This document shows, piece by piece, positions 3,453-53,801 of a stretch of 64,000 nucleotides of DNA (position 1 is its first letter; each line of letters begins with the position of its first letter). The notes beneath the pieces were generated by a model that saw only the letters and a list, made by a program, of their open reading frames with translations, ran no database searches and was not told the origin of the DNA. The position numbers and the translations under genes are program-made. The DNA comes from Nitrospira sp. (lineage in GTDB: Bacteria; Nitrospirota; Nitrospiria; Nitrospirales; Nitrospiraceae), in NCBI GenBank assembly GCA_024760545.1, contig CP060501.1:4108036-4172035 (forward strand). Reading direction: 5' to 3'.

Positions 3453-3586
3453 TCCAGCAGGCTGGGGCCAAGATCGTTGTTCCGATCGGCGATCGCTCCT
3501 ACGGGATGCAAGATTTTCGAATCGCAGATCCAAACGGTAACGAACTCAATATCGGACAGGCGCTCGCAGACGACAGCTGGCGCTGA
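3449..3586 (+). pseudogene. 3' fragment of a VOC (glyoxalase/dioxygenase) family gene
   Basis: Starting at GTA 3449 the frame encodes 45 residues ending at TGA 3584-3586. The stretch AGAKIVVPIGDRSYGMQDF followed by RIADPNGNELNIGQ is the hallmark C-terminal beta-alpha-beta-beta-beta end of VOC-superfamily proteins (DPxGNxL/I). No start codon or N-terminal half exists upstream, because the preceding sequence is the end of the hydrolase gene in another frame. It is therefore a remnant left by a deletion or recombination with its junction near 3450. Confidence 0.75.
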
Positions 3587-3872
3587 CTACTCGCTCTCCA
3601 CCTTGCCATAGACCTGCCTCTCTCGGTGAACGATGGCCGTTCGAACAGCACATTGAACTACGCTCACAGATCGCGATCGGTCAACAGATTAAGGCGAAGC
3701 GAAACTAAGCGGCCATGATGAAGTAAGTACATTCTAGTAAGGTTGTCGCTGAGAACCAGTAGGTGCCCTAGTTGTGAGGAGTGCGATTGCATGTCAGCAT
3801 CGAAATGCCGGATCGCTGAGTACATATCGCCGCGGGGCGCTTCGTGTCATGGCTGCAACGGCCGTGCAGTGA

Positions 3873-5195
3873 GTGGTAAGTGTGATGGACACAAATAATT
3901 CATCATTTAGTCGGAGCTTTTGGATCACTGGTATTGTTTTCATAGCGACAATTTCAGCCTCGTGTTCATATACAGGCCGACATGTGCTTGGGTTTTGTAA
4001 AACATTCGATGAGCTTCCGCTGACTCCGTCGGTTCAGACATTTCCGTCCGTCGGACTTGAAAATCTGGGGATTATCAAAGTGATGAATGGGACCGGCACT
4101 GCGACACTCGATCACGGAGCTTTCATGCGGGTCGAGCACAGTGTAGATATTCCGGACTACGCAAATAAGGCCACCGTTTTTCTTAACGGTTGGAACTTGA
4201 GTTACCGTGGTCCTGACGACCAGCATGTCGTCGGGCTTGCAACGTTAGTCGGTAGGGTCAGACTTGAGGGCAAGAAGCTGACATGGAATGCAATGGGTAT
4301 CCTCAGCGACAATGATGCCGCTGAAGCGTACGCGTGGACCTACCACTATACCGTCATCGCCTGGAACGACACGGCGCTTAATGTGCTCGTGAACCACGAC
4401 GACACCGACAATTTCTGTCAGCCGGGGACCGGCGCCTCGGACAACTTCTATTTCGCCGATAACAGAGAAACCTACACGGCTCTTTCCTCGTTTAGTTCGT
4501 TTCTCCAGAACCCCGACTTTCCTCCAAACGGGCCCGTTGCCATTCTCCCACGCGGGTTTGGATTCAGTTGGACCAACGACCACAAGTTGCTGCAACTGGC
4601 ATACAGTTTGGATCACAGTGAAGCCTTTGCTGAGTACGGCAAGAAATATAAAAAGGCATTTGACGAGATTCCCGCTCCGTTGCCGACTCCCGCCAGCACC
4701 TTGGACGCGCGTTTTGTAAGTTGGAACACCTATGGCATTCTCAAGGACAATAGTCTGAGAAGGGAATATCTATTCGGCGAAATGGTCTCTGCCGTAGGTG
4801 GGAGTGATGTTGGAGCACGGCAACCTCCTTTTTCGATTCTGCCGCTTCAGAGTCCTAGCGGAGATGCCTGCATTCCTCAGGGCGACTTTCATGGTGTGCA
4901 GGCCGAAGACTTTGTCATTGAGAATGTCCCATTCGATTACGCCATACCGATGCTGACGGGTTGGGAGTTGCGTTACCCGTGTAATGATGAAAATGTTAAG
5001 GAGATCGGGATTTGGATAGATAGATGGGAATATGTGAAGGACCCTGCCGTCTCTACGGGAAGATTGAGTTATACGCTTTCTTCAGTCCTGCATGACAAGG
5101 ATAATGATCCCGGACACAACCGCCGTCACAAAGTGACGATCCTTGGACTAAAGCCGACGAGCGCTGTGACAGCGAAACCGGGTGCGCCACGGTAG
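3873..5195 (+). CDS. Putative lipoprotein of unknown function
   Basis: A 436-440 aa protein. Two starts compete: GTG 3873 and ATG 3885; neither has a strong ribosome site. The N-terminus has a hydrophobic segment and a lipobox-like SASC, so it is probably a lipoprotein. The rest is rich in aromatic residues, Asn and Asp with beta-strand character (for example WNLSYRGPDDQHVVG, and a second similar GWELRYPCNDENVKEIG near residue 370). This suggests two repeated beta-sandwich modules, each carrying GW[NE]L[SR]Y. No family recognised. It is isolated, with about 280 and 240 bases of flanking non-coding DNA. Confidence 0.75.
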   Translation: MVSVMDTNNSSFSRSFWITGIVFIATISASCSYTGRHVLGFCKTFDELPLTPSVQTFPSVGLENLGIIKVMNGTGTATLDHGAFMRVEHSVDIPDYANKATVFLNGWNLSYRGPDDQHVVGLATLVGRVRLEGKKLTWNAMGILSDNDAAEAYAWTYHYTVIAWNDTALNVLVNHDDTDNFCQPGTGASDNFYFADNRETYTALSSFSSFLQNPDFPPNGPVAILPRGFGFSWTNDHKLLQLAYSLDHSEAFAEYGKKYKKAFDEIPAPLPTPASTLDARFVSWNTYGILKDNSLRREYLFGEMVSAVGGSDVGARQPPFSILPLQSPSGDACIPQGDFHGVQAEDFVIENVPFDYAIPMLTGWELRYPCNDENVKEIGIWIDRWEYVKDPAVSTGRLSYTLSSVLHDKDNDPGHNRRHKVTILGLKPTSAVTAKPGAPR

Positions 5196-5437
5196 CGCCT
5201 TTCAGTCCGTCGGGATGGTCGATGCTGCGTTGTGTTACGCAAAGCCTTCTCTCGGTCCCACTGGAACTGCATGAAGCCATTCTAGAGGAGTGACTCAGTA
5301 TTGTTCATGAGGCTCCGGCCAAACTTCTGCATCGTGAATAGAGTGCCCACGTTGCCATAGACCTGCCTCTCTCGAAAACGTAGAATGTGCCCAGCTGTCC
5401 TTCCTTCGTGGAGATCAAGAGCTAAGGGAATAGGCAC

Positions 5438-36761: not shown

Positions 36762-38213
36762 TTAGATAAAGGAGGGAGAGGTTGGCGGCCTTCCTGAGAT
36801 CCGTTTTTGGCGCAGCAGTTTGGTCAAGTAGGTGCGCTGAAGGCCGAGTTCGGCTGCCGCTTTCGTTTGGTTCCACCCGTTCCGAATCAACGCATTTTCG
36901 ATAAGCTTTCGGCTATGGGCATCCATACTTTCATGATAAGAATGAAAAACGGTTTGACCATCTGCAGAAATGTCTGGTTCCTGCCTGGGGCGAGTGGGAG
37001 CATCAGGCAATAATAGATCTTCCGGTTCAATCGTGTCTCCGGTACATAAGACGAGAGCGCGGGAGATCACATTCTCTAACTCACGGATATTGCCGGGCCA
37101 GGAATAATGTTGCAATGCCTCCAACGCCACATCGCTGAGCACGAAACGTTTCTGAAGTCCCAGCTTGACGGGTCGAGAACTGATGAAGTGCTGCGCAAGA
37201 GCGAGAAGATCGTCCATTCGCTCCCGCAGGGGAGGCGGTGTGACCGTGATGACGGCAAGGCGAAAATATAAGTCTTCACGGAAAGTTCCTTGACGGATTG
37301 CCTGTCTCAGGTCTTTATTCGTAGCGGCAAGAACCCTCACGTCGACTTTGACCGACTTGGTACCCCCGACCCTGGTGAACACCTGATCTTGCAACGCGCG
37401 CAGGACTTTGGCCTGCGTGCTCATACTCATGTCACCGATCTCGTCGAGAAACAATGTTCCACCGTCCGCTTCTTCGAATTGGCCTCGCTTCATTGACGCG
37501 GCGCCTGTGAAGGCGCCTTTTTCATGCCCGAAGAGTTCGCTCTCGATCAATGTTTCAGGAATGGCTGCGCAATTGACGGCCACGAATGGTTTGTGGGCGC
37601 GAGGACTCCAACGATGAATGGCGCGGGCTAGAATTTCCTTGCCGGTTCCGGTTTCCCCAAGCAATAAAACGGTTGCGGTCGAAGCGGCCGCTTTTTTCGC
37701 ACAAGCGAGTTGTACAGCCATATGCTTGTTTGTGGCGACGATGGGGTCAAGCTGGTCATCAACCTCCTTTCGAAGCCGATTGAATTGGTGATGGAGGGCG
37801 ACGGTCTCCAATGCCTTCTTGATCACGACGGTCAAGTGATCCGCGGTAAACGGCTTCGGAACAAAATCGAAGGCACCGAGTTGCATGGCCTGCACGGCAA
37901 GCTCGATGGTTCCGAACGCCGTAAGGATGACAATGAGCGGGGTCGTGTACGTACCCGAAGTAGGCGGGGTGGCCTCTCCTTTAGGCTGATTCGCATGTGA
38001 CATATCACGAACTTGTCGTAAGACCTCCAGCCCGGATTCCTGGCCAAGCTTCAAATCCAACAAGACGAGATCGGGCACCTCTTCGCGGATCAGGCGAAGC
38101 GCACTCGCGACATCGGTGGCGATGAGGGGCTCATGTCCCATCCAGGTGACGCGATTCTCCAAGCTCATGCGGATATCATTCTCGTCATCCACAATCAGTA
38201 TCTTGGCGTGCAT
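36762..38213 (-). CDS. Sigma-54-dependent response regulator (module 2)
   Basis: A 483-aa NtrC-type activator. Start ATG 38213 (AAAGGA upstream). Receiver about 3-130 (VDDENDIRM, LVLLDLKLG, PKPF), AAA+ domain about 155-400 (GETGTGKE, GAFTGA, FLDEIGD, R-finger region), Fis-type HTH at the end (NQTKAAAELGLQRTYLTKLLRQK). The HTH differs from that of the module 1 regulator by only a few residues. It is the third gene of the operon binding protein / kinase / regulator, which itself has a UAS pair and sigma-54 promoter, implying positive autoregulation. Confidence 0.95.
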   Translation of the reverse strand: MHAKILIVDDENDIRMSLENRVTWMGHEPLIATDVASALRLIREEVPDLVLLDLKLGQESGLEVLRQVRDMSHANQPKGEATPPTSGTYTTPLIVILTAFGTIELAVQAMQLGAFDFVPKPFTADHLTVVIKKALETVALHHQFNRLRKEVDDQLDPIVATNKHMAVQLACAKKAAASTATVLLLGETGTGKEILARAIHRWSPRAHKPFVAVNCAAIPETLIESELFGHEKGAFTGAASMKRGQFEEADGGTLFLDEIGDMSMSTQAKVLRALQDQVFTRVGGTKSVKVDVRVLAATNKDLRQAIRQGTFREDLYFRLAVITVTPPPLRERMDDLLALAQHFISSRPVKLGLQKRFVLSDVALEALQHYSWPGNIRELENVISRALVLCTGDTIEPEDLLLPDAPTRPRQEPDISADGQTVFHSYHESMDAHSRKLIENALIRNGWNQTKAAAELGLQRTYLTKLLRQKRISGRPPTSPSFI

Positions 38214-38279
38214 AGAATTCCCGTCCTTTCGAGATAGGCTTCTCCATCCCAAGGAATATGGCGATGCGCGGCGGATGGT

Positions 38280-40586
38280 TTATGTTGTCTGACTTGGCTC
38301 ATGCGGCGATCCAGCAATGGGCAGCGTAAAGAAAAAACGTGATCCGGTCCCAGGTTGACTTTCCACCCAGATCCGCCCGTGATGTCTCTCGACAAGCGTT
38401 TTTGTGATGTACAGGCCCAGTTGGGCACCCTGTGATGCAGGCATGGCCGACGGCACCTCAGAAAACTCGTCGAAAATATACGGGAGGTGAGAGGAGTCTA
38501 TTCCACAGCCGGTATCGGTGACGCATGTCTGTACGAATCCTGATGGGCATACACTAAAATCGACCACGACACGACCGCCGGATGGTGTGAATTTGATGGC
38601 ATTTCCGACGAGATTCACCAGAATCTGCTCCAATTTGTCGAGGTCACCCTGGATCAATGGAAGATGTTCTCTCGGAGTCACAGCGAGGGACACGTGGCTA
38701 TCTGATGCGACCGTTTCCAAACCTTCGGTAACGATCGTTGCAATCTGCCCGATACAGACATGTTCCAAGCGAAGATTGTCGGAACGTAGCCAATCAAGCA
38801 ACTCATTGGCCAATCTCGCAAGCCGAGCGACGCTGTGTTTGATGCGTGTGAGATAGGTACGCTGTTGTTCGGTGAGCGGTCCAGTGACACCGTCGAGCAT
38901 GTTTTCCGCGAAACTACGGATCGCTGTCATAGGAGTCCGCAGCTCATGCGAAACGACTTTGACATACTTTGATCGGCGCGTGTCGTGGGCCTGAAGCTGT
39001 AAATTGGCGAGTGACAGCTCTTCCGTCCGTTGCGCGATGCGCTCCTCGAGATGCTGCGTGAGCTCGGTCAGTTCGGAATAGGCCTTGGCATTGTCGATCG
39101 CGGCCGCAACGTGGCCGGCGATCGTTACGAGTATATGGAGGTCCTCTTCGCTGCACTGGCGTGAGCAGCGGTCGCCGGCGAGAAATCCCAATATCTTGGT
39201 ATGGCTCTGGAGCGGTACGGCGACGAACGACTGCACGTCTGAACGGCGTGCCATCTCAAGTATCGGCGGGTACATCCGTTGTGTGACGGTTTCGACATCT
39301 TGGATCAGCAATGGTTTGCCATGAACGATGAGGTCGGCCGTGATACTGCCATTATCGACGACTGGTATGTCGATCCGGCGAATAGCCTCTGCGATCTCCG
39401 GCGAGACGCCGATGATTCTGGCAAGTGAAGCACAGTTCCGATCCGGATGGTGTAGGAACACAGTCATCCGAGAAAATCCAAGGTTATCGACGAGCAGGTG
39501 GAGCACCGAATCCAGCAGTTGGTTCATATCGAACATGTTGGCGCTCGCGATCGCAGTGCTGGCTTGATGGACCGTGGTCAATTGTCTGACCTGTTTCCTG
39601 ATCGTGTCGAGGTTCATGGTGATCGCATGATTACGATCATGGAGGGACTGTGTCATCACGTTGAACACCTGTGTCAACTCACCGACTTCGTCGTGGGTGG
39701 AGGCTGTGAGTCGAACCGGTGCATCGTTGCGTTCCGCGAGCTGCCGAGCCGCGCCGGCCAGGCTCCTCAGAGGTGTGGTGATGCGTGATGTCAGAAAGTG
39801 AGCACTGAGGATGCCTGCCATGATGATGAGAACTGTCATGGCCGATACATTGCGGAGGATCACCAATAAAGCCTCTTTGGCCAGTGCGTCGGTAATTCCG
39901 ATGCGCACGACGCCGATCACCGGAGAGAGTGTAGTCGGGGTCATTGAACCCTGCTTGTCTTCCAATTCGACCGAAAAGTGTGGCTGGGTGGGCTCGGACG
40001 AGGATGCCCGAAGGACGGGCATCGCAAAGTCAAACAAGGTTTCCTTGCGTACGAGATAGGGGAGGAGCCAGTCTGAATGCTGTTCTTGGGGGACTAATGT
40101 CTGCTCCGCAGACAGAACCAGTTTGGTCATGAGCGGAACGGTCAGCGGGGCCTGGAGCAGTGATGCTGAGATGCGGTCGTCCGGGTAGAGGGGCTGTTCC
40201 GTGGCCGGAGCGGACCCGTTCGACGTCCTCCGTGTGCGTTTGCTTTGCTGTTCCAGGATACGACCGTCTGCGGAAGTGATGGTTACGTAGACGACGTGGT
40301 CGATCGTCATAAGACTCTGTATAAATTGGCCAAGCGTGATGCGATCCTCGAGAACGACACCGGCGATCCGAAAGTGATCGTTCCGAACGGTATTGGTCAG
40401 CAAGATGTTTCCGAGTTCTTCCAGATTGTCCGTCATGGCCTGGCGTCGTGTTTCGAGGAAATACCAGCTCAGAGACGAACAGGTCATCACGAGAATAAAG
40501 CTGAACAAGCTTACGAACTTCAATCGGAGGCCAAAAAACCGAGCGGTGGACTTCGATTCCTGTCCGTCGTGAAGGTGTGTGCTCAT
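38280..40586 (-). CDS. Membrane histidine kinase with GAF domain (module 2)
   Basis: A 768-aa sensor kinase. ATG 40586 is chosen; TTG 40601, overlapping the binding-protein stop, is possible. TM1 about 20-42, periplasmic region about 45-215, TM2 about 225-248, HAMP (RITTPLRSLAGAARQLAERND), GAF (about 325-480; LGFSRMTVFLHHPDRN, VQSFVAVPLQS), HisKA (VVSHELRTPMTAIRSF), HATPase (ILVNLVGNAIKFTPSGG, DTGCGI, LGLYITKTLVERH). The extra GAF domain distinguishes it from the module 1 kinase and could add a cytoplasmic input. Confidence 0.95.
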   Translation of the reverse strand: MSTHLHDGQESKSTARFFGLRLKFVSLFSFILVMTCSSLSWYFLETRRQAMTDNLEELGNILLTNTVRNDHFRIAGVVLEDRITLGQFIQSLMTIDHVVYVTITSADGRILEQQSKRTRRTSNGSAPATEQPLYPDDRISASLLQAPLTVPLMTKLVLSAEQTLVPQEQHSDWLLPYLVRKETLFDFAMPVLRASSSEPTQPHFSVELEDKQGSMTPTTLSPVIGVVRIGITDALAKEALLVILRNVSAMTVLIIMAGILSAHFLTSRITTPLRSLAGAARQLAERNDAPVRLTASTHDEVGELTQVFNVMTQSLHDRNHAITMNLDTIRKQVRQLTTVHQASTAIASANMFDMNQLLDSVLHLLVDNLGFSRMTVFLHHPDRNCASLARIIGVSPEIAEAIRRIDIPVVDNGSITADLIVHGKPLLIQDVETVTQRMYPPILEMARRSDVQSFVAVPLQSHTKILGFLAGDRCSRQCSEEDLHILVTIAGHVAAAIDNAKAYSELTELTQHLEERIAQRTEELSLANLQLQAHDTRRSKYVKVVSHELRTPMTAIRSFAENMLDGVTGPLTEQQRTYLTRIKHSVARLARLANELLDWLRSDNLRLEHVCIGQIATIVTEGLETVASDSHVSLAVTPREHLPLIQGDLDKLEQILVNLVGNAIKFTPSGGRVVVDFSVCPSGFVQTCVTDTGCGIDSSHLPYIFDEFSEVPSAMPASQGAQLGLYITKTLVERHHGRIWVESQPGTGSRFFFTLPIAGSPHEPSQTT

Positions 40587-40597
40587 GATCAGACCGG

Positions 40598-41563
40598 TCA
40601 ATATGTCTCGTCGATAAGGCTGTCGAACTCTTTCGGAATCGTGATGTCCAAATACCGCGCCATCTTCTGATTGACCGTAATCTTGATCCGGTGAACTGAA
40701 ATTGGCTTGAGCGGCAACTGTTCACCGTTCAAAATCCGTTTGGCAAGCAGGCCGGCTTCACGTCCGACTTCCCCGTAATCGATCGAGATACTGAGTAACG
40801 CGCCGAGACGTGTAAATTCAGAAGAGAACCCGACGACCGGAACCCGTTTGGCTACCGCCGATTCCAGAATGAAGCGAATCGATTCATCCGTCAGGACGGT
40901 TGAGTCCGGAATGAACCATAAGGCTTCGGATTCGGATAAAAGTGATCGCAGTTGCTGCGGGACTTCTTTCTCGTTCTCGACCGGAAACCCCTGTACTTGG
41001 AACTGGTGGTCGGCAGCTTGAGATTCTGCCTCCTTCAGCTTGGCCACAGTCTTGTCGGCACTGTAGATCACGCCGATGCGGCGAAGGGCGGGAAGGAACA
41101 TGCGCATGACTTTGAACTGACGATCCATCGGAACTTCCAGCAGCACGCCGGCCATATTGGCGGCAGTGAGATGGTGTTTCAATGGATCGAGGATCATCAT
41201 GTAAAGAATGGGAACGTCCACAATCTCAAGCTGAGCCGCCAGCGCTGCCTTCAGACCGACGGCAACCACGAGCGAAGATGTCGAATTGCGGATTGTCCTG
41301 GCAAGTTGCTTTCCCCGTTCCAGATCGCCTCGAAGATCATATTCAGCGTAGATGGAAGTCCCTGGCGCCGTCACCTTGAACCCTTCGATTGCCTCGTTGT
41401 AGGCCTTGAGGTCGGATGACTTCAGGATAGCAATCTCGCCCCCGGCAGCGTGAGCGCTCGCAGGGGCAACGGACCAGAGAGCGGTGAACACGAGGGACAG
41501 TAGCCATGTGTGTGAGAAGCACACTCTCATCTGTTTACGGCCGGTAAAAGGAAGAGCGAGCAT
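40598..41563 (-). CDS. Orphan ABC-type substrate-binding protein (module 2)
   Basis: A 321-aa periplasmic protein of the ABC_sub_bind (PF04392) group. Start ATG 41563 (an internal ATG at 41530 is also possible; ribosome sites are weak). Signal peptide to about 40 (ASAHAAG). GEIAILKSSDLKAYNEAIEGF, VAVGLKAALAAQLE, GVLLEVPMDRQ and IGVIYSADK match the module 1 paralogue. No permease or ATPase gene is present. First gene of the operon and directly behind a near-consensus sigma-54 promoter. Confidence 0.9.
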   Translation of the reverse strand: MLALPFTGRKQMRVCFSHTWLLSLVFTALWSVAPASAHAAGGEIAILKSSDLKAYNEAIEGFKVTAPGTSIYAEYDLRGDLERGKQLARTIRNSTSSLVVAVGLKAALAAQLEIVDVPILYMMILDPLKHHLTAANMAGVLLEVPMDRQFKVMRMFLPALRRIGVIYSADKTVAKLKEAESQAADHQFQVQGFPVENEKEVPQQLRSLLSESEALWFIPDSTVLTDESIRFILESAVAKRVPVVGFSSEFTRLGALLSISIDYGEVGREAGLLAKRILNGEQLPLKPISVHRIKITVNQKMARYLDITIPKEFDSLIDETY

Positions 41564-41712
41564 CAATGTGCCGTTCTAGCCATGATCACGGAGACTCTAA
41601 GACCACTGCGTCAGGATAGCGCAACCGAAACGTTTGGATCGGACGAGAGACGGTATGTTTCTGTATGTGAACTTGTTCGGTTGAGAATGTTGTCGTTGTA
41701 TTATTGTGATAC

Positions 41713-41728
41713 AGCAAGCGCTGTGCCA
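41713..41728 (-). promoter_or_regulatory. Sigma-54 (-24/-12) promoter of the module 2 operon
   Basis: Minus strand TGGCACAGCGCTTGCT, the best match in the window to TGGCACGrNNNTTGCW. The leader to the ATG at 41563 would be about 135 bases. The nearer UAS centre is 97 bp upstream. Confidence 0.85.
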
Positions 41729-41899: not shown

Positions 41900-42658
41900 C
41901 TATTGAGCATTGATCTGAATGGATCTGAGATCCCAGTCTGCCACGCCATGCAGGCCGACTTGCCTGAGCAAGGTGGCTCGCATCCTTCGCAGCGATGCAT
42001 CTCTGGGATCCTTCGTGATCAATGAGCAGAGACAATCCATTGCGTCGTACCAGAGCCCCATCATGGCGTTGGTACGCACACTCTCACGATCGCAGTTCAT
42101 ATTCGGGGAGGCGATCGTCAGACATTCGCTGAACTCGCATCGCTCGATCATTCCGCCCGCGACGATATCTTGGGAGTGGGAGTCGGCATTGCGACGGGCG
42201 GAGACGAACCATCGATACTGGACATTGGGCTCAAGCACGAGTCCGAAAGCCTTGAGGTCGATAGACTGAACCCCTGCGTCAGTGGGAGTGGGGAGCGGGC
42301 CTTCATAGACCGGACGAATTTTCTGCGTGTCGTTGAGCGTGAATCGTAGAGGGTAGGTCGTCGGTTTCGAGAGATACCAACTGAGCGTGGGCGTCTGCTT
42401 GACGGTCAACCCGACATGGTCGGGCACCAATGCGACGATTTCGGGGTCATTGCCCTCCGTTCCCCGCAATGCTCCCCCGACACGCGCGCGGGGAGTCAAC
42501 TTTTTTGGCGGAGTATAGACAGGATTTGACAAGTCATCCTGCTGACCTGCCGCTGGGCTGGTCGGTTTGTCTGCCGCAGCAACGAACCTATGTGGTCCAA
42601 CAATGGTCAGGACGAGGCTCAATCCTGCGATTAGTAAAGCACTCGTGGAAAATCGCAT
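41900..42658 (-). CDS. DUF928-family exported protein
   Basis: A 252-aa protein. ATG 42658 follows AAAGGAGG five bases upstream, so the longer frame is rejected. Signal peptide about 1-30. The DUF928 pattern is clear: RARVGGALRG, ALVPDHVGLTVKQTPTLSWYLS, PLRFTLND, YRWFVS, and a helical C-terminus with TPR-like repeats. In cyanobacteria and others DUF928 genes sit with two-partner secretion genes and CHAT proteases, exactly as here. Last gene of the TPS/CHAT cluster, 11 bases after the CHAT stop. Confidence 0.85.
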   Translation of the reverse strand: MRFSTSALLIAGLSLVLTIVGPHRFVAAADKPTSPAAGQQDDLSNPVYTPPKKLTPRARVGGALRGTEGNDPEIVALVPDHVGLTVKQTPTLSWYLSKPTTYPLRFTLNDTQKIRPVYEGPLPTPTDAGVQSIDLKAFGLVLEPNVQYRWFVSARRNADSHSQDIVAGGMIERCEFSECLTIASPNMNCDRESVRTNAMMGLWYDAMDCLCSLITKDPRDASLRRMRATLLRQVGLHGVADWDLRSIQINAQ

Positions 42659-42669
42659 GGATCCTCCTT

Positions 42670-45015
42670 TCATAGCCAATTGTTCAGCAGGAGAAATGGT
42701 GACCAGTAAGCCGGATGTTCATACACGCGGTCACCCAAGAGTTTCATCTGTGCGCGCTGGAGCGCGACGGCTTTCGACAGGGATGGATTGCGCAATTGCC
42801 GATAAAATTCGGAAATCAACGTCGCCGACGCTTCGTCGTTGATAAACCATAACGTCGCCAATGCGCTACGGGCCCCGGCCTTCAGTGCGACGCCGGCCAG
42901 GCCCAGAGCGGCGCGATCGTCACCGACCCCTGTCTGGCAAGCGCTCAAGGTCAAAAGTTCCAGCGGCTCTTGCCGGAACCGAAAGAGGCCGACCAGTTGA
43001 TCAAGCGTCTGCATCGTCAATTTCCCGTCGAACGTCAGAAGAAACGAATCGTTTACGTCGGTTGAAAACATACCGTGCGTTGCTATATGCAACGCCCCAT
43101 AGCGTCCATCGCGCAACTCCTGTTCCAGCCTTGGCGCCTGGAAGGCATTATTCATAAGTTGGTCGCTCGTGTACAGCTGCTCGATCGAGGCGACCTCCTC
43201 CGCGACGTAGGGAAGAGGAGGGAAACCCTGGACGGATTTCGTGAGGCCGACGGCTAGGAAGCGCAGCTTATCGCGGTTCAACGGTCTTGGATCGGTCAAC
43301 GTAATGCCCGGAGTCAAGGCCAGGGCGAATTTTGTGATCAGGAAGGAAGAGCCGTCATGGAGGGACGCCAGCGGAATTGTGCGTAGTGAACTGTCCGGCA
43401 CGAATACCAGTGTGGTAATCACTGAATTCAAAAGGTCCGGTTCGATCGGACGCACCAGCCAGTCGTACAACTGTTGTGCATGGGGTAGATACTCCCGGGT
43501 GGTCCGCTTTTCCACCACTCGGCGAAAAGCCCGGATCTCCTGGGTCAACCGGTCGGAGGTCACGGGCACCGAGATGCGCTTGAGTCCGGAGGGCAGGCTG
43601 ACAAGCAGCTCCAGACGGGAGGTGAACATGATAGGGTAAATAACGGCAGTATCCGGAGACAAGTAATCGAACGTCGTCACTCTCGAGCGGACCGCATCGA
43701 CACAGTCGTCCCGAAAATAGTCCCGAAGCTCGGCCGTCTTGTACGCCTCAATCGCATCTCGAGCTGCAAGCAGATACCCTTCGGCTGCTGTGCGCTCATC
43801 AGTGAGCGATGCCCGCTGGAGTAAGAGGTCGGCCAGCTCAAAGAACATCGGCTTTATGGCATCCTGGCCGGCGATAGGATCTTCGGAGGATGTTTGCGCC
43901 ACCTCCACCCGAATCGGTTGGAGCGTGGATACCGCTTGTCGATAGGAAGCGATGGCGTTATCCAATTCTCCGATAGCGGCCAACTGCCGCCCCAACTGCC
44001 ATTGCCAGCGGTAGAGGGACTCGGGTGCGTCCACCGATTGCGCCGCGAACAATGCCCGCCTGGTGAGTCGGAGCGCTTCATCCAGGCGAGACTCTGTCTC
44101 GTAGAGATGGCCGAGATACCCAAGAGCATACGACAAGGTTCTCTTGTCACCCAGCTGTTCAGTGACTGTGGCCGCTTCCTGGAGCATGCCCGCAACTCTC
44201 AATAACAGGGAATCGTGCATCTGGGGCAGCTGTGAGGCAAGGCGTTGGTAGACCAGAGCCATACCGATCAATCCGAGAGCTCTGTTGCGGGATGGTGACA
44301 CGTCCTTCAACTGATCCAGCGCTGCATCGAGAGCCATACGGCTATTGACCGGTTGATTGAGGCGTAGCAGGACACGCGCGGCATTGGTGCGGCCGGTGGC
44401 AGCGAGTAGTTGCAAGTTGGCCTTTTGTGCGAAGCTCACGCATTCATCGAACGCATTCAGCGCTTGCTGGTCTTGCTGCTTCAACACGAACAGGATGCCG
44501 AGATCGTTCAGCGAAGCGGCCATGAGCGGCGAAGAGTCGTGTTTTCGTGCTAACGCCGACGCTTGATGGAGATATTCCGATGCTTCGTCCAGTCGCCGCA
44601 ACGTCAAATAGGTGCGCCCCAGATGGCCGAGGACGGAGGCCTCAACCAGGGGATCGCCGCCCATGTGTGCAAGCGTAAGGGCCAGTTCCAAAGACTGGAG
44701 CGCTTGTGCGGATTGCCCCAAGGCCATCGATGCCTGAGCAGACAGAATGAGCGCTTCGACTTGAGCCGGACCGTTCCCCATACCTTTATAGAGATCCGCA
44801 GCCTGTTTCCAATGGGACAAGGCCTCACCGAACGCGCCGCGCTCAAAATGCTGGCCGCCTTCCCTCATCAATGAATCACCGGGAGATAATGTTTGATGCG
44901 ATTCTGATTGCGTGACGGCGAACAGCAGCACCATCACGAAGAATAGAAAGCAGATTCCGCGCAGAACGAAACGGAGGGCAGGTCGAGTACATAGTGATGT
45001 CGCGTGGTTCATCAT
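42670..45015 (-). CDS. Exported TPR-CHAT protease
   Basis: A 781-aa protein. The N-terminus is a membrane signal (about residues 15-40, RGICFLFFVMVLLFAV), so the protein should be periplasmic or anchored. About 50-400: tetratricopeptide repeats (ALSHWKQAADLYKGMGN, EASVLGHLGRTYLTLRRLDEA). C-terminus: CHAT domain (caspase-like, clan CD) with HIATHGMF (catalytic His near 647) and LLTLSACQTGVGDDRAALGLA (catalytic Cys near 693), plus ATLWFINDEA. The ATG overlaps the tpsB-like stop (TAATG). Catalytic residues are intact. Confidence 0.92.
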   Translation of the reverse strand: MMNHATSLCTRPALRFVLRGICFLFFVMVLLFAVTQSESHQTLSPGDSLMREGGQHFERGAFGEALSHWKQAADLYKGMGNGPAQVEALILSAQASMALGQSAQALQSLELALTLAHMGGDPLVEASVLGHLGRTYLTLRRLDEASEYLHQASALARKHDSSPLMAASLNDLGILFVLKQQDQQALNAFDECVSFAQKANLQLLAATGRTNAARVLLRLNQPVNSRMALDAALDQLKDVSPSRNRALGLIGMALVYQRLASQLPQMHDSLLLRVAGMLQEAATVTEQLGDKRTLSYALGYLGHLYETESRLDEALRLTRRALFAAQSVDAPESLYRWQWQLGRQLAAIGELDNAIASYRQAVSTLQPIRVEVAQTSSEDPIAGQDAIKPMFFELADLLLQRASLTDERTAAEGYLLAARDAIEAYKTAELRDYFRDDCVDAVRSRVTTFDYLSPDTAVIYPIMFTSRLELLVSLPSGLKRISVPVTSDRLTQEIRAFRRVVEKRTTREYLPHAQQLYDWLVRPIEPDLLNSVITTLVFVPDSSLRTIPLASLHDGSSFLITKFALALTPGITLTDPRPLNRDKLRFLAVGLTKSVQGFPPLPYVAEEVASIEQLYTSDQLMNNAFQAPRLEQELRDGRYGALHIATHGMFSTDVNDSFLLTFDGKLTMQTLDQLVGLFRFRQEPLELLTLSACQTGVGDDRAALGLAGVALKAGARSALATLWFINDEASATLISEFYRQLRNPSLSKAVALQRAQMKLLGDRVYEHPAYWSPFLLLNNWL

Positions 45016-46823
45016 TACAATGCCTGGACCACTACCTGGAGATGAATGCCATAGTCTTGGAGGTTGCCGGATGGATGGGGCACATGATTGAGCGGTACGC
45101 CCCAGTAGAGTTCGAATCGAGCCCTGTCTCGGGGCAGGACGTTCCAGCGGACGCCGAGACCGACGCTGGCGAGCGTCTCGGGAGACGGTGTGCTGTCACG
45201 CGAGATCCAGGCTCGTCCGACGTCAACGAACTGGGCAAACTGAACCATATCTTCGCCGCTGGCAAACTTGAGGAGGGGAATCCGGCTTTCCACGGAGGCG
45301 ATGAATCCGTTGTCCCGGACCAGCGTGTTTTCCCGATAGCCGCGCACGCTGAAGCGCCCTCCCATCGGGATCTGTTCGAGCGGAAACAACCGGTTGTTGC
45401 TGAGCTGGAGATCAAACCGTCCTAGGATCTGCCAGCCGCCCCATTGGTCGAGACGTTTCACCGCCTGGAGTTGTCCCAACCAGGACACAAACCGGCCGCT
45501 GGGCAGCGGATCGCCCTCGGGGGTGAGCCTATCGCGCGAATTGATTGTGGCTCCTAGGACATCGAAGCCCAGGCTGACGCGGGAGCGGAACGCAATCACC
45601 GAGGATGAAGTTCGGTGCTGATACTCCTGAATGAACCGAAGGGCGCTCACGGTGCTCACCCCGGTGTCGGATGCCCCGGGAACAAAAATAAACGGTTGCC
45701 CAGGTAAGTCGAAGGCCGAGGTAATCTTGTTGGAGAGATGCTCGCCGGTGATTGCCACGGCGAGTTCGTCGGTCAAGCTTCGATAGATCGGTTGCCGGAG
45801 CGTTAACCCGAAGATTTCCGACTCCGAGTTCAAGTCCAACGCGCGAAACTGGTCGCTGACGACCACAAACTCGTTTCGGCGATACGACGTGGTGAAGGTG
45901 GTATCGTACCGGTTCAGTGGCAAGCTGTAAGAGACGTCGATGATCGGGTGCACCCCACGTGAGCCGCCGACGGTGAGGGTGAGAGGATCTCCGTGGCCTG
46001 TCACATTGAGGTGGGCCATGGTGATCAGACCTCGCTCTGCACCCACCGTCGGCGTCTGGAAGTTATTGAACTCCAGCCACGTTTTCCACGGACTGGTCTC
46101 TTTGACTTTCACGTTGAGAACACTTTCCCCACGCTGGTCGCCTGGGCGCAGTTCGGCATTGATTCGTTCGATGCGGGGATCACGCTGGAGCAATTGCAAT
46201 CGCTCTTGGATCGGTTCGAGTTTGAGTGGAGGACGCGCGCCCAGGGCCACACGGTCGTTCAAGTAGCCGCGCCGAAACCAGTTCGTTCCTTCGACGTCGA
46301 TTCGTGACAGGGCTCCCTCTATGATCTGCACCTGAATGACACCGCCCTTCACATCCTGATCGGGAATGATGGCACCGGAGGTGATGTAGCCATTGTTGAC
46401 GTACAGGAGCGTCAACGCGAGCCGCAGACGTTCCAAATCTTCGGTCGTCAAGGTTCGGTTCGTATAGGCCTTGGTGATGGCTTCGACTTCTGCGTCCGAG
46501 AAGACGGAATTGCCGGTGACCTGGATGGCATTCACAAACACGCGCACCTGGCCGAGTGGTTTCTGCACCTCGCTGTCCGGCAGCGGTGGAGGCACCACCG
46601 GGAGGGTGGGGCTTGGTGTCGGTGAAGGCGGTTTGAACTCTTTCTTGAGCGGAGCAGGCGGTTCGCCGGATCGAAGCGTGGGGTCAAAGATCGGAGGAGC
46701 GACTTGTGCTGAGAGCGGGGAAACAGTCGCGAGGATAGTCATGGCCAGACCACAGGAGAGAAAGGCTTGGGCGATGATCCGGCGCCGGGCTCCTGGAGCC
46801 GAAGCACCGGTGCCAACCGTCAT
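45015..46823 (-). CDS. TpsB outer-membrane pore (ShlB/FhaC/HecB family)
   Basis: A 602-aa two-partner-secretion transporter. Signal peptide about 1-42, a Pro-rich linker (PPAPLKKEFKPPSPTPSPT), two POTRA domains (about 95-260; FVNAIQVTGNSVFSDAEVEAI, VKGGVIQVQIIEGALSRIDVEG), then a 16-strand barrel including the family motif region GRFSVRGYREN (VRGY). It exports the adjacent TpsA protein. The start overlaps the tpsA-like stop by ATGA. Confidence 0.93.
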   Translation of the reverse strand: MTVGTGASAPGARRRIIAQAFLSCGLAMTILATVSPLSAQVAPPIFDPTLRSGEPPAPLKKEFKPPSPTPSPTLPVVPPPLPDSEVQKPLGQVRVFVNAIQVTGNSVFSDAEVEAITKAYTNRTLTTEDLERLRLALTLLYVNNGYITSGAIIPDQDVKGGVIQVQIIEGALSRIDVEGTNWFRRGYLNDRVALGARPPLKLEPIQERLQLLQRDPRIERINAELRPGDQRGESVLNVKVKETSPWKTWLEFNNFQTPTVGAERGLITMAHLNVTGHGDPLTLTVGGSRGVHPIIDVSYSLPLNRYDTTFTTSYRRNEFVVVSDQFRALDLNSESEIFGLTLRQPIYRSLTDELAVAITGEHLSNKITSAFDLPGQPFIFVPGASDTGVSTVSALRFIQEYQHRTSSSVIAFRSRVSLGFDVLGATINSRDRLTPEGDPLPSGRFVSWLGQLQAVKRLDQWGGWQILGRFDLQLSNNRLFPLEQIPMGGRFSVRGYRENTLVRDNGFIASVESRIPLLKFASGEDMVQFAQFVDVGRAWISRDSTPSPETLASVGLGVRWNVLPRDRARFELYWGVPLNHVPHPSGNLQDYGIHLQVVVQAL

Positions 46824-49800
46824 GAGTGGCAGCCTGTGGATCCACTCGCAAACGCTCGAACCAAAAACCCTGGCGGCGTCAGCCGTCGAAGGGACACGAT
46901 CTCGGTCTCAGTCACACGTGCGATCGCACTCGGACTTGTCGTATGCTCCAGTTCCTCTCCAGTGAAATGATCCATCGACACGGGGCTACTGAGCCACCCG
47001 CCTGGCTGGGAGGGGAGGGCATCACGTCCGGCGACAATGAACGTGCTCTGTTCGCCGCCGGCAAGTGCCGCACAACGGTTTTGCAAGAGCGCCTGGATTT
47101 CGCTCGGCTTCGACGGGAGCTGCGTGACCGTCTCACTCAAGTTCGAGGTCGACGATTGAATCGATACCTTGCCGCTCTGGCCAAACTGTGACGATGCGTC
47201 CACGAGGCTGGTGGGATCCTGTAGGAACCGGGCTGTACTAATCGTGATATCTCCCCCGCGTCCTAGCACCGCCTGTGTGAGGATCGCACTGTTGTCTTGT
47301 ACGATAACTTCTTTCGGGTCGATGGTGATTCTTCCACTGTCTCCAGAACCCTCGAGCACCGACGTGCTGATTCGGCCATTCGCTAAGTGAATACGATCGA
47401 TCGCGATAATATCGATATTGCCACCTCTCGCTGATTCTGCTTCAGTCGTAATTCCGCCGTTTCGTACCATGAGTTCCCGTCCGGCATCTACTTTGATATT
47501 TCCTGCGCTTCCTGGACCGGTACTGCGGCTGGATATGTGTGCACCGTTCTGAAGCGTGACGGAGTTGGCATTGACGAAAATGCTCCCGCCCAGCCCGGGT
47601 CCTTTTGTTTCAGAAAAGATACCGCTTCCCGAGCCGTCAATGACTACCGACGCCGCCGGACTGCCTAAGGCCTGGATCGTAATAGACCCACCCACACCCG
47701 AACTGCCAGAGAGTATAGAGCTGTTGAGCTTGCTTCCCTCCGAAAGGGAAACGTTCTGTGCATTAATGTTAATCGGACCGGAATTTCCAGCGCCTTGCCC
47801 TATTGTGTTCATTACGGATTGGCCAGAGAGCAAGATCATAGGCGAAGAAATCTCAAGGCTGCCTACATCCGATAGGAAGCTAAAAACTCGAATGTCGCTT
47901 CTGTCATTCATTAAGATTGATTCTGTTGCGTGGATATTAATTTTAGGAATCGTGGAGGGCAGCGGCTCAGAGAATGTAGAGCTGTATATTCTGGCTTGAT
48001 TCGACAGAGTAAGCGTTTTAGTTTCAAGATTGATTACACCAGTTCCGCCAGTCCCTTCGGGGTTCTCGTTTGTAATAGGAAAAGGTGGTTGGCCTAAGAT
48101 ATCTCCTTCCAAGGAAATTGCATCTGATGTGACCACAGAGATGTTCCCTGACCTCCCATTCCCACCGGTTGTACGGATACTTCCATTCGAGATGTTGAGA
48201 TTTCTAATTGCGAGCGAGATATTGCCAGACGGCTCAGTGCTGCTACCTGGTAATGTCTCAATTCTTCCACCATTCTCAATGTTCACGGTAGCTGAAGGAG
48301 CGGTGATATTGATTGATGCACTGGTTCCACCATTCGCTCCCATGGTGGCTGTCTGAATGATGCTTGGGTTGTCAAAGATCCCCATGCCCGCAATAGAGAT
48401 GAAGTCGGCTCCATGAATAGTGATTGGGCCTGCCTGGCCAGGACCGTCACCAAATCCGCGTAACAAGTAATTCCATCCACCGGTTGAGGCAATACGACCT
48501 CCTGATAAGATATTGAGTTTGGTAACATCTATTGTGATAGGCTGACCAGAACCCGCCCCTGTAGTAAAAGTTGCAACCTCACCCGAATTCTCAATGGTCA
48601 GCCTCGGGGTTGAGATGGTCAAAGCTCCGTCCCCACCACCCCCCAGAGTTCCTGCGAAAATTCCACTCGGTATAATTCCGATATCTGACCAAACGCCAGA
48701 GGTGGAAGTGTCACCATATCCAGAAATACTGATGGCTTCTGTAGCGACGACATTCAAGTTCCCACCACCTACAGATGATGAACTTTCATTGCTCGTGACT
48801 ATCTGAGAAGCTCCGCTTAGATCAAGAGATCCAGTCACAATACTTATCGCTGTACCATCTGCTCCACTGGTTGTAGTACCGAGAACACGACTCCCTTCTG
48901 TCAAGGTGATAGAGTCCCTATTATCGCTGGTTGTGGAGGGAGTCCCAGTTGAGAGAGTCGCTTTCGTGACATTGAGTACAAATTCACCGCTGCGAATAGA
49001 TATAACACTTGTGGCACTATCACGGTTGTCTATCCATGATTGTGGGGAGAGCGAAATGACGCCATAAGTATGGAACACTTGTCCGTCTCGATTGGGAGCG
49101 GCTTGCAAATTCTCATAAATGAACTCTCCAGGCGAGTGAGCACTTCCTAGACGAATGTACCCATTTGGCGCAAGTAGTTTAGCTGTTTGAGACGTGCCGC
49201 TCTCGAATGCTCCCTTCTGGATCTCGACATTTCCACCGGCCAATGTAAGCTGAGATCCAGTTGAGACAGCCAGATGGGCACCTTGCACGATGATTCCGCC
49301 AGAGTTTGAGGTGAGAAACCCAAAGGCTACCACTGGAGCTGCGCTGAGCAGAGCATCTGACCCTACGTCTGGCACTGCGTTAAATAGAGAGCCATCGGTC
49401 GAGCGAAGATAATTGGCTGTGGTGAAATTGACTGAACCCCCGACATTTAATGTTGCCCCGGGGCCAAAGACAATGCCAGCAGGGTTCATAAAAAAGAGGT
49501 TTGCGTTTGGATAATAAGAGGCACTATCGATAGAGCCGAATAAATGGGAAGGGTAGCCACCGGTAACCCGCGCAAGAAGATTACTGACGGAGTTATCTGG
49601 TACTAAAGTTGTGGTTTGGAATTGGCCAGTCTCCAGAGGACCAACGGAAAATTTCCCAAAACTATGAAACAGATTGCTCCCCACCTGGATGCCGTGCGTA
49701 ATACTATATACGGTTCCGCCATGAGGTGGAGGAGTTACGGTGGTGTGAAGACCTGACGGCGTAATGTCGGTTGATACCTCCGCTTGGATTTCGGTACTGG

Positions 49801-49843
49801 CAATCAACAGTAGGAGGCAGATTATTTGAGTTAGGATCAGCAC
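46820..49843 (-). CDS. TpsA: filamentous-haemagglutinin-type secreted protein
   Basis: A 1007-aa exoprotein. Signal peptide about 1-22 (STEIQA). The TPS secretion domain (haemagglutination activity) spans about 25-170, with HGIQVGSNLFHSFGKFSV, FGSIDSASYYPNANLFFMNPAGIVFGPGATLNVGGS. The rest is a right-handed beta-helix with many GxI.I....[LI] repeats (ISIRSGEF, GPITIHGADFISI, GSITIQAL), like S-layer-type TpsA proteins. The C-terminus has Cys-containing ending. Base composition is more A+T-rich than neighbouring blocks, suggesting transfer. Confidence 0.92.
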   Translation of the reverse strand: MLILTQIICLLLLIASTEIQAEVSTDITPSGLHTTVTPPPHGGTVYSITHGIQVGSNLFHSFGKFSVGPLETGQFQTTTLVPDNSVSNLLARVTGGYPSHLFGSIDSASYYPNANLFFMNPAGIVFGPGATLNVGGSVNFTTANYLRSTDGSLFNAVPDVGSDALLSAAPVVAFGFLTSNSGGIIVQGAHLAVSTGSQLTLAGGNVEIQKGAFESGTSQTAKLLAPNGYIRLGSAHSPGEFIYENLQAAPNRDGQVFHTYGVISLSPQSWIDNRDSATSVISIRSGEFVLNVTKATLSTGTPSTTSDNRDSITLTEGSRVLGTTTSGADGTAISIVTGSLDLSGASQIVTSNESSSSVGGGNLNVVATEAISISGYGDTSTSGVWSDIGIIPSGIFAGTLGGGGDGALTISTPRLTIENSGEVATFTTGAGSGQPITIDVTKLNILSGGRIASTGGWNYLLRGFGDGPGQAGPITIHGADFISIAGMGIFDNPSIIQTATMGANGGTSASINITAPSATVNIENGGRIETLPGSSTEPSGNISLAIRNLNISNGSIRTTGGNGRSGNISVVTSDAISLEGDILGQPPFPITNENPEGTGGTGVINLETKTLTLSNQARIYSSTFSEPLPSTIPKINIHATESILMNDRSDIRVFSFLSDVGSLEISSPMILLSGQSVMNTIGQGAGNSGPININAQNVSLSEGSKLNSSILSGSSGVGGSITIQALGSPAASVVIDGSGSGIFSETKGPGLGGSIFVNANSVTLQNGAHISSRSTGPGSAGNIKVDAGRELMVRNGGITTEAESARGGNIDIIAIDRIHLANGRISTSVLEGSGDSGRITIDPKEVIVQDNSAILTQAVLGRGGDITISTARFLQDPTSLVDASSQFGQSGKVSIQSSTSNLSETVTQLPSKPSEIQALLQNRCAALAGGEQSTFIVAGRDALPSQPGGWLSSPVSMDHFTGEELEHTTSPSAIARVTETEIVSLRRLTPPGFLVRAFASGSTGCHS

Positions 49844-49859
49844 AGATTCTCCCTAGATC

Positions 49860-50693
49860 TCATTTCACAATCTGCACTCCAATACAGCCTCCATCCAGTA
49901 AGGAAATGCCCAGACAGGCCCTACTTCCTTGGCTCAATAGCCCCTGAAGTTCTGACAGTAGAGATGTCGAAGGGGCCGAAACTGTCTCGTCTTTAGGGGG
50001 ACATCCCATTTGCCCATCCTCTTCATCCGGACAATCATCTGGGTTCATTTGTGCCGAGGCTCTTGCGTAGCCAGTTGTGGCAGGAAACTCTATAGACTGA
50101 CCACTTGCAATAGAGAACTTAAGTTTTACTATGACTTTCCGGTTTCCTGTCATGACGTTGGTAGTTGATGGAGTTGGTGATACCGTCTTGTCAAATGTAA
50201 TAGTGGGATATTGAGCTGTGATGGCAGACGAGGCGAAAAGCTGTGTCCCAACCGGATGTTCCAAAGCTGACGAAAGCGTAATCTTATTAGAAGGAGAAGC
50301 CCCATTGATTCTTCCATTCATGCGAGTGTTGTAGTAGATGGGGCTGTAATCAACACTAGTTGGGCCAGGAACAAACACGTGTTCGAATGTCAAGACGTAA
50401 TCTGTGATTGTGGTTTTCGCTACGAGTTTAGTGTTTACTAGTTTAAGAATATCGTTGGTTCCACCATCTATAGCCTCGATCCGTGCCGTCCCTCCACTAG
50501 ACTGAAAGTCAAGATTTGCATTGCATGTTGCGGGGAGGTTGGCGGTTGGTGCTCCACTTCCAGAACAATAAACCGTAGTGCCAGCTAAATTTGTAACTTT
50601 CCAGTTTATGGCACCAGCCTCCGGGGCGTGAAGAAGTGGTGTTAGAAGGCCTGTCACCAAAAAACCTAGTAACGTCAATCTTGCCTTAGGCAT
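49860..50693 (-). CDS. Secreted protein of unknown function (TPS cluster)
   Basis: A 277-aa protein from ATG 50693 (GGGGAG upstream). Signal peptide about 1-30 (PEAGA). Mature protein is rich in Thr, Ser and Asn with beta-sandwich character and a short acidic Cys-containing segment (NPDDCPDEEDGQMGCPP). It ends in a hydrophobic stretch. Located between the metzincin gene and TpsA, 16 bases before the latter. Possibly another surface protein; no family known. Confidence 0.7.
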   Translation of the reverse strand: MPKARLTLLGFLVTGLLTPLLHAPEAGAINWKVTNLAGTTVYCSGSGAPTANLPATCNANLDFQSSGGTARIEAIDGGTNDILKLVNTKLVAKTTITDYVLTFEHVFVPGPTSVDYSPIYYNTRMNGRINGASPSNKITLSSALEHPVGTQLFASSAITAQYPTITFDKTVSPTPSTTNVMTGNRKVIVKLKFSIASGQSIEFPATTGYARASAQMNPDDCPDEEDGQMGCPPKDETVSAPSTSLLSELQGLLSQGSRACLGISLLDGGCIGVQIVK

Positions 50694-50762
50694 GTTCTTC
50701 TCCCCTCGTAAGAAAATGATCATGTACCGCGTGTCTCGCCTGGGTCTTAATACTTTGAAAAA

Positions 50763-52118
50763 TTATCTGTTCCTGGAGACAATCGCACAGGACTGTTTTC
50801 TAATATATTCCGAGTTGTCTACTTTGGCTGTGTCGTCTGCGCTTCCAGCGGGGGTGCGGGTGTTCTTATAGAAAACATTCGGATTCGAATACAGAGCAGC
50901 GCGCTGGCAGTCTCGAATATTATTGGCTTTGCATTCCCTCTTAGTTGCCATCACCGTATAGGTCTTTTCTTCAAGACTTAGATGCCCAAAATTAGAGGAA
51001 GTGTTATTGCCATTAGGTACCTGCTCATCAAATCGTGTATGTCGCGTACCAAGGTTATGCCCAATTTCATGCGCAAGAGAGTAATAATTTGCCGCACAGC
51101 CTACCTGAACAACTGAAAAACCATCCTTCGCATTTGGAAGTCGACCATCAAATTTCGGCGACGCCCCACAATAGTCACCACTGGAAACCAATAGACTTAC
51201 GAGATCGGCCTTTACCGCATCGCGTAATGCACTCGCTTTGGTTCCAAAATGAGCTGGGTCTTGAAGTTTACCTAGATCATCCTCTAGTACCCCGCTTTCT
51301 TGAAAGTCGTCCCGTGGGACTAACATCGTGTCCGCGATTTGGACTTCTGCGTTAATGTAACTGTGTTTAAAGGCGTCATTCGTTACTCCTATGGCCCTGT
51401 TAACTACTCCAGTGATATTTCCAAGTTGGTGATTCTGCAAAAAATCTTTAGTATCTTGGGTGTAGAGGATTAGTACATCAATAATGCATTGTCCCGAGTC
51501 TTGCTCCTCATGAACCAGGCCACGACGTTCACGCCGGTCATCGTCGGGAAACCGATCTGAGTCCCACTCGTAGATGCGAGTTAGGCCGCTCTCTAGAGTG
51601 ACGATTTCATAAATTAGCCCCTCACTCGTGATCGTGGCTGTAATTTGCTGGCTCACTGTATCTACGATGAAAATGGCATCGCCAACTACCTTGCCCTCGA
51701 GGGCTACAGGGCCCGACCAACGATAGGTGTTCACAAACGTATCTGTTTTTCCTTTGACACGCGTGTATGTGTTTGGTGAGAATTGTAGCGTGACATCGGG
51801 AAACAGCCTCAGGGGGATCGGGTGTAATGGGGTGTTGATGATGCGGGGAGCTAACCTTTTCCAGTCCAGTTTACCCTCACGAAAACGACTTCCTGCTATG
51901 ACCTTGTTATAGAATTTTTGACCGTTCCCGGGTGGAACATAATTGGTTTGACCTTCGCGAGGCATAGTGTCAATGGCAGAGTTATCACCTGTGCTTTTCT
52001 CATCAAATAAGTCTAGTATCGGAGTATCAGGATAACCACTGCCTGTGAGCAACGGGACTAAACTCAGCAGAAAGACGGCGCAAACGCGCACACCATCTTG
52101 GTAGCTGGGTAGCTTCAT
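50763..52118 (-). CDS. Secreted metzincin (reprolysin-like) zinc protease
   Basis: A 451-aa protease. Signal peptide about 1-28. The N-terminal 200 residues may be a propeptide (beta-rich). The catalytic domain starts near 205 (DVLILYTQDTKDFL) and holds HEIGHNLGTRH near residue 350, the HExxHxxGxxH zinc motif of metzincins, and the Met-turn YTVMATKRECKAN downstream. Cys pairs (DYCGASP, QVGCAANYYS, CKANNIRDC) probably form disulfides. First gene of the cluster; it may process TpsA or other surface proteins (inference). Confidence 0.88.
   Translation of the reverse strand: MKLPSYQDGVRVCAVFLLSLVPLLTGSGYPDTPILDLFDEKSTGDNSAIDTMPREGQTNYVPPGNGQKFYNKVIAGSRFREGKLDWKRLAPRIINTPLHPIPLRLFPDVTLQFSPNTYTRVKGKTDTFVNTYRWSGPVALEGKVVGDAIFIVDTVSQQITATITSEGLIYEIVTLESGLTRIYEWDSDRFPDDDRRERRGLVHEEQDSGQCIIDVLILYTQDTKDFLQNHQLGNITGVVNRAIGVTNDAFKHSYINAEVQIADTMLVPRDDFQESGVLEDDLGKLQDPAHFGTKASALRDAVKADLVSLLVSSGDYCGASPKFDGRLPNAKDGFSVVQVGCAANYYSLAHEIGHNLGTRHTRFDEQVPNGNNTSSNFGHLSLEEKTYTVMATKRECKANNIRDCQRAALYSNPNVFYKNTRTPAGSADDTAKVDNSEYIRKQSCAIVSRNR

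Positions 52119-53724: not shown

Positions 53725-53801
<77 letters not shown>

Follow-up and report, generated by a model that had tools for sequence, protein, structure and literature searches.

Two-partner secretion (type Vb, FHA/HMW-type) joins a TpsA protein carrying a TPS domain with a POTRA/barrel TpsB in one operon. The gene cluster described here has the same arrangement and, by analogy, would export its TpsA N-terminus first, but it adds a caspase-like protein, a DUF928 protein and a swappable block of enzyme, partner and passenger. According to a review, genes for TpsA maturation proteases do not appear to belong to TPS operons (PMC5422565). SphB1, the extracytoplasmic subtilase linked to FhaB, is an autotransporter encoded elsewhere, and while S8 variants of the present cluster likewise link a subtilase to a TpsA, here the peptidase type varies and the gene lies in the operon. 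LapG cuts the periplasmic C-terminal tail of CdrA (PMC5422565; PMC4694147). Our cluster parallels this pair with a cysteine protease that is predicted to be exported and a TpsA whose C-terminal tail is conserved, but the protease is a CHAT protein (TPR and CHAT by Pfam) as opposed to the transglutaminase-like LapG, its gene is inside the TPS operon, and the likeness is one of function only, through a presumed cleavage. With respect to CHAT proteins, TPR-CHAT Csx29 cuts Csx30 in a loop in which no single residue is essential (PMC10028731). Both Csx29 and the membrane-anchored HetF combine TPR with a CHAT His-Cys dyad, as does the protein studied here, which differs in being predicted extracytoplasmic and linked to secretion, with no CRISPR or cell-division setting. 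In CDI systems and polymorphic toxins, too, recombination joins a variable module to a TPS apparatus that stays constant. In the present cluster, however, the C-terminal tail is constant while the N-terminal side and the upstream genes vary, and TpsA is followed through an ATGA overlap by TpsB, with no C-terminal toxin and no immunity gene after it.

Cyanobacterial TPS/CHAT/DUF928/CHASE2 clusters share the core genes (Planktothrix plasmid L071 and Nostoc plasmid L158), as the initial annotation of this DNA had stated for cyanobacteria, together with a similar TpsA tail motif, but show no peptidase gene next to TpsA in the few regions of plasmid that were read. A search of open-access literature gave no account of TPS together with CHAT or DUF928, and we rate the system as a new variant of two-partner secretion. 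Our reading, which we hold to be probable, is that of a TPS operon whose back half is constant and whose front half can be exchanged, in which CHAT likely works on the TpsA tail and the swapped enzyme at the cell surface.

The gene cluster and its constant core

The window, by which we mean the whole 64,000-nucleotide stretch of Nitrospira sp. DNA that was analyzed, contains between 41900 and 52118 six minus-strand genes at the coordinates listed in Table 1. Their families are those already claimed (metzincin, secreted protein, TpsA, TpsB, TPR-CHAT and DUF928), as supported by Pfam and NCBIfam for all but the secreted protein. The tight coupling proposed for the core was borne out by stop/start overlaps of ATGA between TpsA and TpsB and TAATG between TpsB and CHAT. 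The DUF928 start as listed (TTG 42679) is probably wrong and should be the in-frame ATG at 42673, which gives a further ATGA overlap between CHAT and DUF928, so that all four core genes are chained. The TPS domain of TpsA matched PF05860 with 110.5 bits over residues 27-241. Between DUF928 and the ABC_sub_bind gene lie 333 bp, which hold the exact sigma-54 site. A tRNA-Arg gene at 53725-53801, approximately 1.6 kb upstream of the metzincin, is a possible integration site.

Table 1. Features of the cluster and its neighbours, in window coordinates.
Feature	Position	Strand	Basis or remark
Metzincin (M12B/reprolysin-like), signal peptide; variable cassette enzyme	50763..52118	-	PF13688, E 3e-9
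SEC, small secreted partner, predicted beta jelly-roll core; variable cassette partner	49860..50723	-	AF2
TpsA, whole gene	46820..49843	-	PF05860, E 2e-31
TpsA signal peptide, TPS domain and passenger; exchangeable part	47538..49843	-	PF05860; DNA identity against L025
TpsA constant C-terminal tail	46820..47537	-	84% DNA identity with L025, running on through TpsB-DUF928
Conserved TpsA tail motif RCAALAGGEQSTFIVAGRDALPSQPGGWLSSP, residues 923-954	46982..47077	-	Candidate CHAT site after R940
Second conserved Cys of TpsA, C1005	46829..46831	-	
TpsB outer-membrane transporter (POTRA and barrel)	45015..46823	-	PF08479 (POTRA_2), PF03865 (ShlB)
Exported TPR-CHAT (caspase-like) protein, H647/C693 dyad	42670..45015	-	PF12770, E 4e-56
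DUF928 protein, signal peptide, Ig-like sandwich and C-terminal helices	41900..42673	-	PF06051, E 2e-33
Exact sigma-54 promoter consensus TGGCACAGCGCTTGCT before two-component genes	41713..41728	-	
Exported ABC_sub_bind protein, recurrent neighbour	40598..41566	-	PF04392; in relatives, homologous genes lie downstream of DUF928
Sensor histidine kinase (HAMP, GAF), recurrent neighbour	38280..40601	-	Pfam
NtrC-type sigma-54 activator response regulator	36762..38252	-	PF00158, E 5e-72

DUF928 was detected in 97 of the 175 family genomes. The survey covered 60 regions of up to 20 kb each around DUF928 hits and a second, independent set of 77 named loci collected via TpsB alignment, with some loci common to both sets; many of the loci surveyed are from metagenome assemblies. 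In total 139 loci were considered, which after removal of near-copies (TpsB ≥97%) left 73 non-redundant loci with TpsA and TpsB. The named loci belong almost exclusively to Nitrospira, with N. moscoviensis (L145) and Ca. N. defluvii (L118, L140) among them. The gene order TpsA-TpsB-CHAT-DUF928 is recurrent in dozens of genomes, and the constant core consists of TpsA, TpsB, the exported TPR/CHAT protein and DUF928, after which a two-component system usually lies. In L097, L106 and L050 as many as three TpsA genes in tandem have a single TpsB between them, and DUF928 is duplicated in the defluvii-like clade.

The genome of the window also carries a second TPS-TpsB-CHAT cluster, L008 (C1:1150000-1169999), with a CHASE2-cyclase and DUF928 and without a metzincin. 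Identity to the window cluster is 50% for TpsB, 46% for CHAT, 32% for TpsA and 31% for DUF928. A larger secreted protein is encoded before TpsA in this second cluster; a close homologue of it in L119 has SpaA-like and C-type lectin domains. Profile comparison related its N-terminal domain family to the SEC family of the window (92%, E 6.5e-7), and direct BLAST of the L008 protein against window SEC gave no match. The clade formed by L008, L119, L128 and L132 has a CHASE2-type cyclase gene in place of the two-component system, as in cyanobacterial plasmids.

Occupants of the slot before TpsA

The initial annotation had missed that the metzincin is only one of the enzymes that can fill an exchangeable slot, that SEC is its partner and that most of TpsA is swapped along with the two. 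The zinc site HEIGHNLGTRH, followed by the Met-turn VMA (TVMAT), fits HExxHxxGxxH plus Met-turn, and the PF13688 match is over the cut-off. Assignment to Mep72 was rejected (NCBIfam NF052434, 61.9 bits against a cut-off of 645). SEC had no sequence match in Pfam, NCBIfam or PDB. A fold search with its AF2 model (mean pLDDT 67, core strands 39-222) returned generic jelly-rolls only, the match to TmCBM61 (Z 7.9, rmsd 3.1, 118 aligned) being tied with unrelated jelly-rolls, and SEC is predicted to be a jelly-roll of uncertain kin.

Slot contents were counted wherever CHAT was adjacent and the sequence upstream sufficed, which was the case at 58 non-redundant loci. A slot peptidase was detected by model in 27 of these: C39/C70-like (papain-like) in 15, S8 subtilase in 6, metzincin in 3, M43-like in 2 and an FG-GAP metalloprotease in 1. 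The S8 count hides one more locus, L066, which near-copy removal had discarded since its TpsB is almost the same as that of L065. A lectin-type protein occupies the slot in 6 further loci, and 25 have neither a peptidase nor a lectin-type protein. Pfam support, looked up for seeds and examples, is clear for the S8 and metzincin examples, while the C39/C70 and M43-like matches are mostly below the gathering score, the C39-type call being additionally based on a conserved CW motif. The peptidase models were made from slot members, which renders the absence of peptidases elsewhere in the loci partly circular. One slot S8 protein (L109:4013-5974) did not have the usual HGT motif by simple search and may be inactive or divergent.

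Some of the 25 loci in which the models had detected no peptidase were inspected further. Occupants beyond the models were an S8 enzyme (L043), GMC oxidoreductases (L056 and L110, a cytochrome c gene accompanying one of them) and, in L045, an animal haem peroxidase, which indicates a slot for secreted enzymes and not for proteases alone. The L045 product (2398-5340), encoded in the slot before TpsA, is predicted to be a lipoprotein and carries the haem peroxidase domain of the animal type (PF03098, E 1.5e-68). In the model-based survey a SEC-family protein adjoins every metzincin, S8, M43-like and FG-GAP slot enzyme, and the C39-type enzymes are paired with a C10-family protein; this pairing rule is limited to the surveyed set, since the L043 subtilase, which lies outside the models, has a small Cys-rich protein as its next gene. 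Small Cys-rich secreted proteins (approximately 100-190 aa), often together with a lipoprotein, were also seen directly before TpsA in L056, L110, L091, L055 and C39-type loci, and are possibly substrates.

The metzincin had been described as a less usual addition to the TPS/CHAT/DUF928 group; it is present in 3 of 58 assessable loci. In the neighbourhood survey, which had been suggested at the same time, metzincins adjoined TPS/CHAT homologues of other species, at L101/L025 and at L065, so it does not hold that the neighbours of such genes never include a metzincin. A fixed membership of the metzincin in TPS/CHAT clusters was rejected on the same count and on its absence from the second cluster of the same genome. 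This absence, and the reprolysin genes found away from TPS genes in other genomes of the family, among them those of S8 type, would also suit an unrelated secreted protease that is a chance neighbour of the TPS operon. Against such a coincidence, the only Reprolysin_5 gene of the window genome (4.8 Mb) is the metzincin of the cluster, the sole reprolysin gene is likewise the slot gene in G085 and G158, the metzincin is 39 bp from SEC (with SEC a further 16 bp from TpsA), and equivalent cassettes recur. The unbiased copy-number check, made in 12 genomes for two families, gave 0-1 matches for Reprolysin_5 and 0-3 for S8. Chance adjacency, already disfavoured, is considered most improbable.

Replacement of the front block

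The front half of the operon consists of the secreted enzyme, its partner and the TPS domain and passenger of TpsA, and the back half of the TpsA tail, TpsB, CHAT, DUF928 and, usually, the two-component system. In the close pairs compared, the front block (enzyme, partner and most of TpsA, about 80% of it in relatives with TpsB 98% identical and about 75% in the window) has been replaced repeatedly as a unit. L065, with a metzincin, and L066, with a subtilase, are 97.7% identical in TpsB and 96% in CHAT. Their DNA is 93% identical from the last 177 TpsA codons through the two-component genes and 88% identical in the upstream flank, with no DNA match across the enzyme, the partner and the remainder of TpsA. 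When the window was compared with its nearest relative, L025, DNA identity broke inside TpsA at 47537 and resumed only upstream of the metzincin, near 52532; identity was 89% for TpsB and 88% for both CHAT and DUF928, as against 28% for the metzincin and 29% for SEC. Among pairs with TpsB at 95-99%, the TpsA tail had a median identity of 94%, the TPS domain one of 58% and the passenger one of 54%, as calculated from the 15 closest pairs, which come from about two near-relative groups and include duplicate loci. On a TpsB tree of 61 loci the slot type requires 20 changes, with well-supported branches forcing at least 2 changes for metzincin, 9 for C39 and 4 for S8. In L041/L090, L033/L098, L023 and L024 the region upstream of the cassette carries recombinase- or integrase-like genes, which, from a reading of the sequence only, might drive the swapping.

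Divergence of the peptidase follows that of its partner (C39, rho 0.55, p < 0.001; S8, rho 0.72, p 0.004) and does not follow TpsB, while divergence of the TpsA tail tracks TpsB (rho 0.82 and 0.85). With respect to the TpsA passenger, S8 divergence tracks it (rho 0.49, p 0.02) and C39 divergence does not (rho 0.02), which means that the cassette does not strictly co-evolve with the passenger as a single unit. The joint replacement of peptidase, partner and passenger in close pairs, the S8 correlation and the precedent of SphB1 (PMC5422565) are what would be expected if the slot peptidases were passenger-specific maturases, each co-inherited with its TpsA passenger and acting like SphB1 on FHA, with CHAT merely finishing or regulating. 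The behaviour of the C39 peptidases, the redox enzymes in the same slot and the many clusters without a peptidase count against this, and we regard it as rather doubtful. The redox enzymes make a general exoenzyme role likelier than that of a dedicated TpsA maturase.

Fast replacement and co-divergence of enzyme and partner also resemble effector-immunity pairs, and among the toxin domains of polymorphic toxins peptidases are frequent (PMC3482391). The cassette could on these grounds encode a TPS-carried antagonistic effector with its inhibitor or immunity protein, used in microbe-microbe competition. However, TpsA has no fused toxin and its variable end is N-terminal, not C-terminal; unrelated enzymes of several types share a single partner family, SEC; the SEC jelly-roll core bears only a weak resemblance to binding modules; and a relative is fused to a C-type lectin domain. 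Such an antagonistic role is held to be quite unlikely.

CHAT, the TpsA tail and DUF928

The membrane signal and the intact His and Cys that had been ascribed to the CHAT protein were both confirmed. The CHAT domain matched PF12770 with 191 bits, H647 and C693 are each kept in 65 of 66 homologues, and by a simple rule 59 of the 66 have an N-terminal hydrophobic segment preceded by basic residues, which places the TPR and CHAT domains, by prediction, outside the cytoplasm. A PDB sequence search with the protein matched TPR proteins and nothing for the CHAT domain, a defence-system library gave weak TPR and BovA matches alone, and a phage library gave weak matches of unknown function. The initial annotation had further proposed an extracytoplasmic protease acting on or with TpsA; here an export-competent CHAT with an intact dyad in a TPS cluster stands, and cleavage of TpsA is still inferred. 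A role for CHAT as a scaffold or sensor, rather than a protease, would be in keeping with a CHAT protein that has no known substrate and with HetF, a CHAT protein that acts at the divisome and is termed a putative protease (PMC8406250), but the near-complete conservation of the dyad, together with the loss of function on mutation of the conserved HetF active site (PMC8406250), makes this unlikely.

The search for a conserved cleavage site in TpsA that had been advised yielded a candidate in the constant tail, after R940 in the xGR[D/G]xLP motif. The tail consensus is rCaAla.G..SsfvxaGRd.lP.ePgGwL.SP ... tgC.S, with the motif C...SF..xGRxxLP..P...C. Among loci with room on both sides, CHAT accompanied the motif in all 98 that had it, so that the motif was never seen on its own, while 4 loci had CHAT with the motif undetected and 4 had neither (Fisher 1.4e-5, near-copies included, and indicative only because of locus relatedness). 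The tail-motif profile gave no detection in two cyanobacterial TpsA proteins, in which C...SF...RGGLP..P and a later Cys were seen by eye, and whose clusters contain CHAT and DUF928. The role of the GR motif could instead lie in folding or anchoring, not in cleavage.

In the mechanism that we propose, TpsA would cross the outer membrane through TpsB with its N-terminus first, by analogy with known TPS systems, leaving the two-cysteine tail as the last part in the periplasm, where it may keep TpsA attached to the surface. CHAT, located in the periplasm or anchored in a membrane, would recognise this tail and probably cut it, possibly after the Arg of the motif, and the cut would lead to maturation or release of TpsA in the manner of LapG on CdrA. 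DUF928 may assist in the periplasm, and the metzincin and SEC, as enzyme and partner, would work jointly with the passenger that matches them, either at the cell surface or beyond it. A more specific version, to which we give less than even credence, is a polymorphic surface-enzyme platform in which one export-release machine (TpsB, periplasmic CHAT, DUF928 and two-component control) would serve recombined modules of enzyme, partner and passenger, with CHAT cutting a universal tail and so controlling release.

Nitrospira are key nitrite oxidisers with biofilm growth, and a variable surface enzyme system would bear on their attachment, competition and use of extracellular protein. If the mechanism is right, exported CHAT proteins gain a concrete candidate substrate, the TpsA tail, and a cellular place; the company that DUF928 and CHAT keep with TPS genes in Nitrospira and cyanobacteria is explained; and type Vb systems would include module swapping on the N-terminal side, with whole enzyme genes.

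The DUF928 protein, predicted to be periplasmic, had no PDB match by sequence. Its AF2 model (pLDDT 83) was best matched by the C-terminal domain of MtxA (4z29; Z 10.3, next 6.5), with 160 residues aligned at an rmsd of 4.8, a match which yields no function. With respect to regulation, a sigma-54 site with a mismatch at 52800, upstream of the metzincin, was not above chance and was discarded. Across the 73 loci (1.39 Mb) the strict sigma-54 pattern was observed 33 times against approximately 2.7 expected, about 12-fold over, with 32 of the 33 sites co-oriented with the cluster and about half located shortly after DUF928. Sites similar to that of the window are present in many relatives, 48-509 bp past DUF928.
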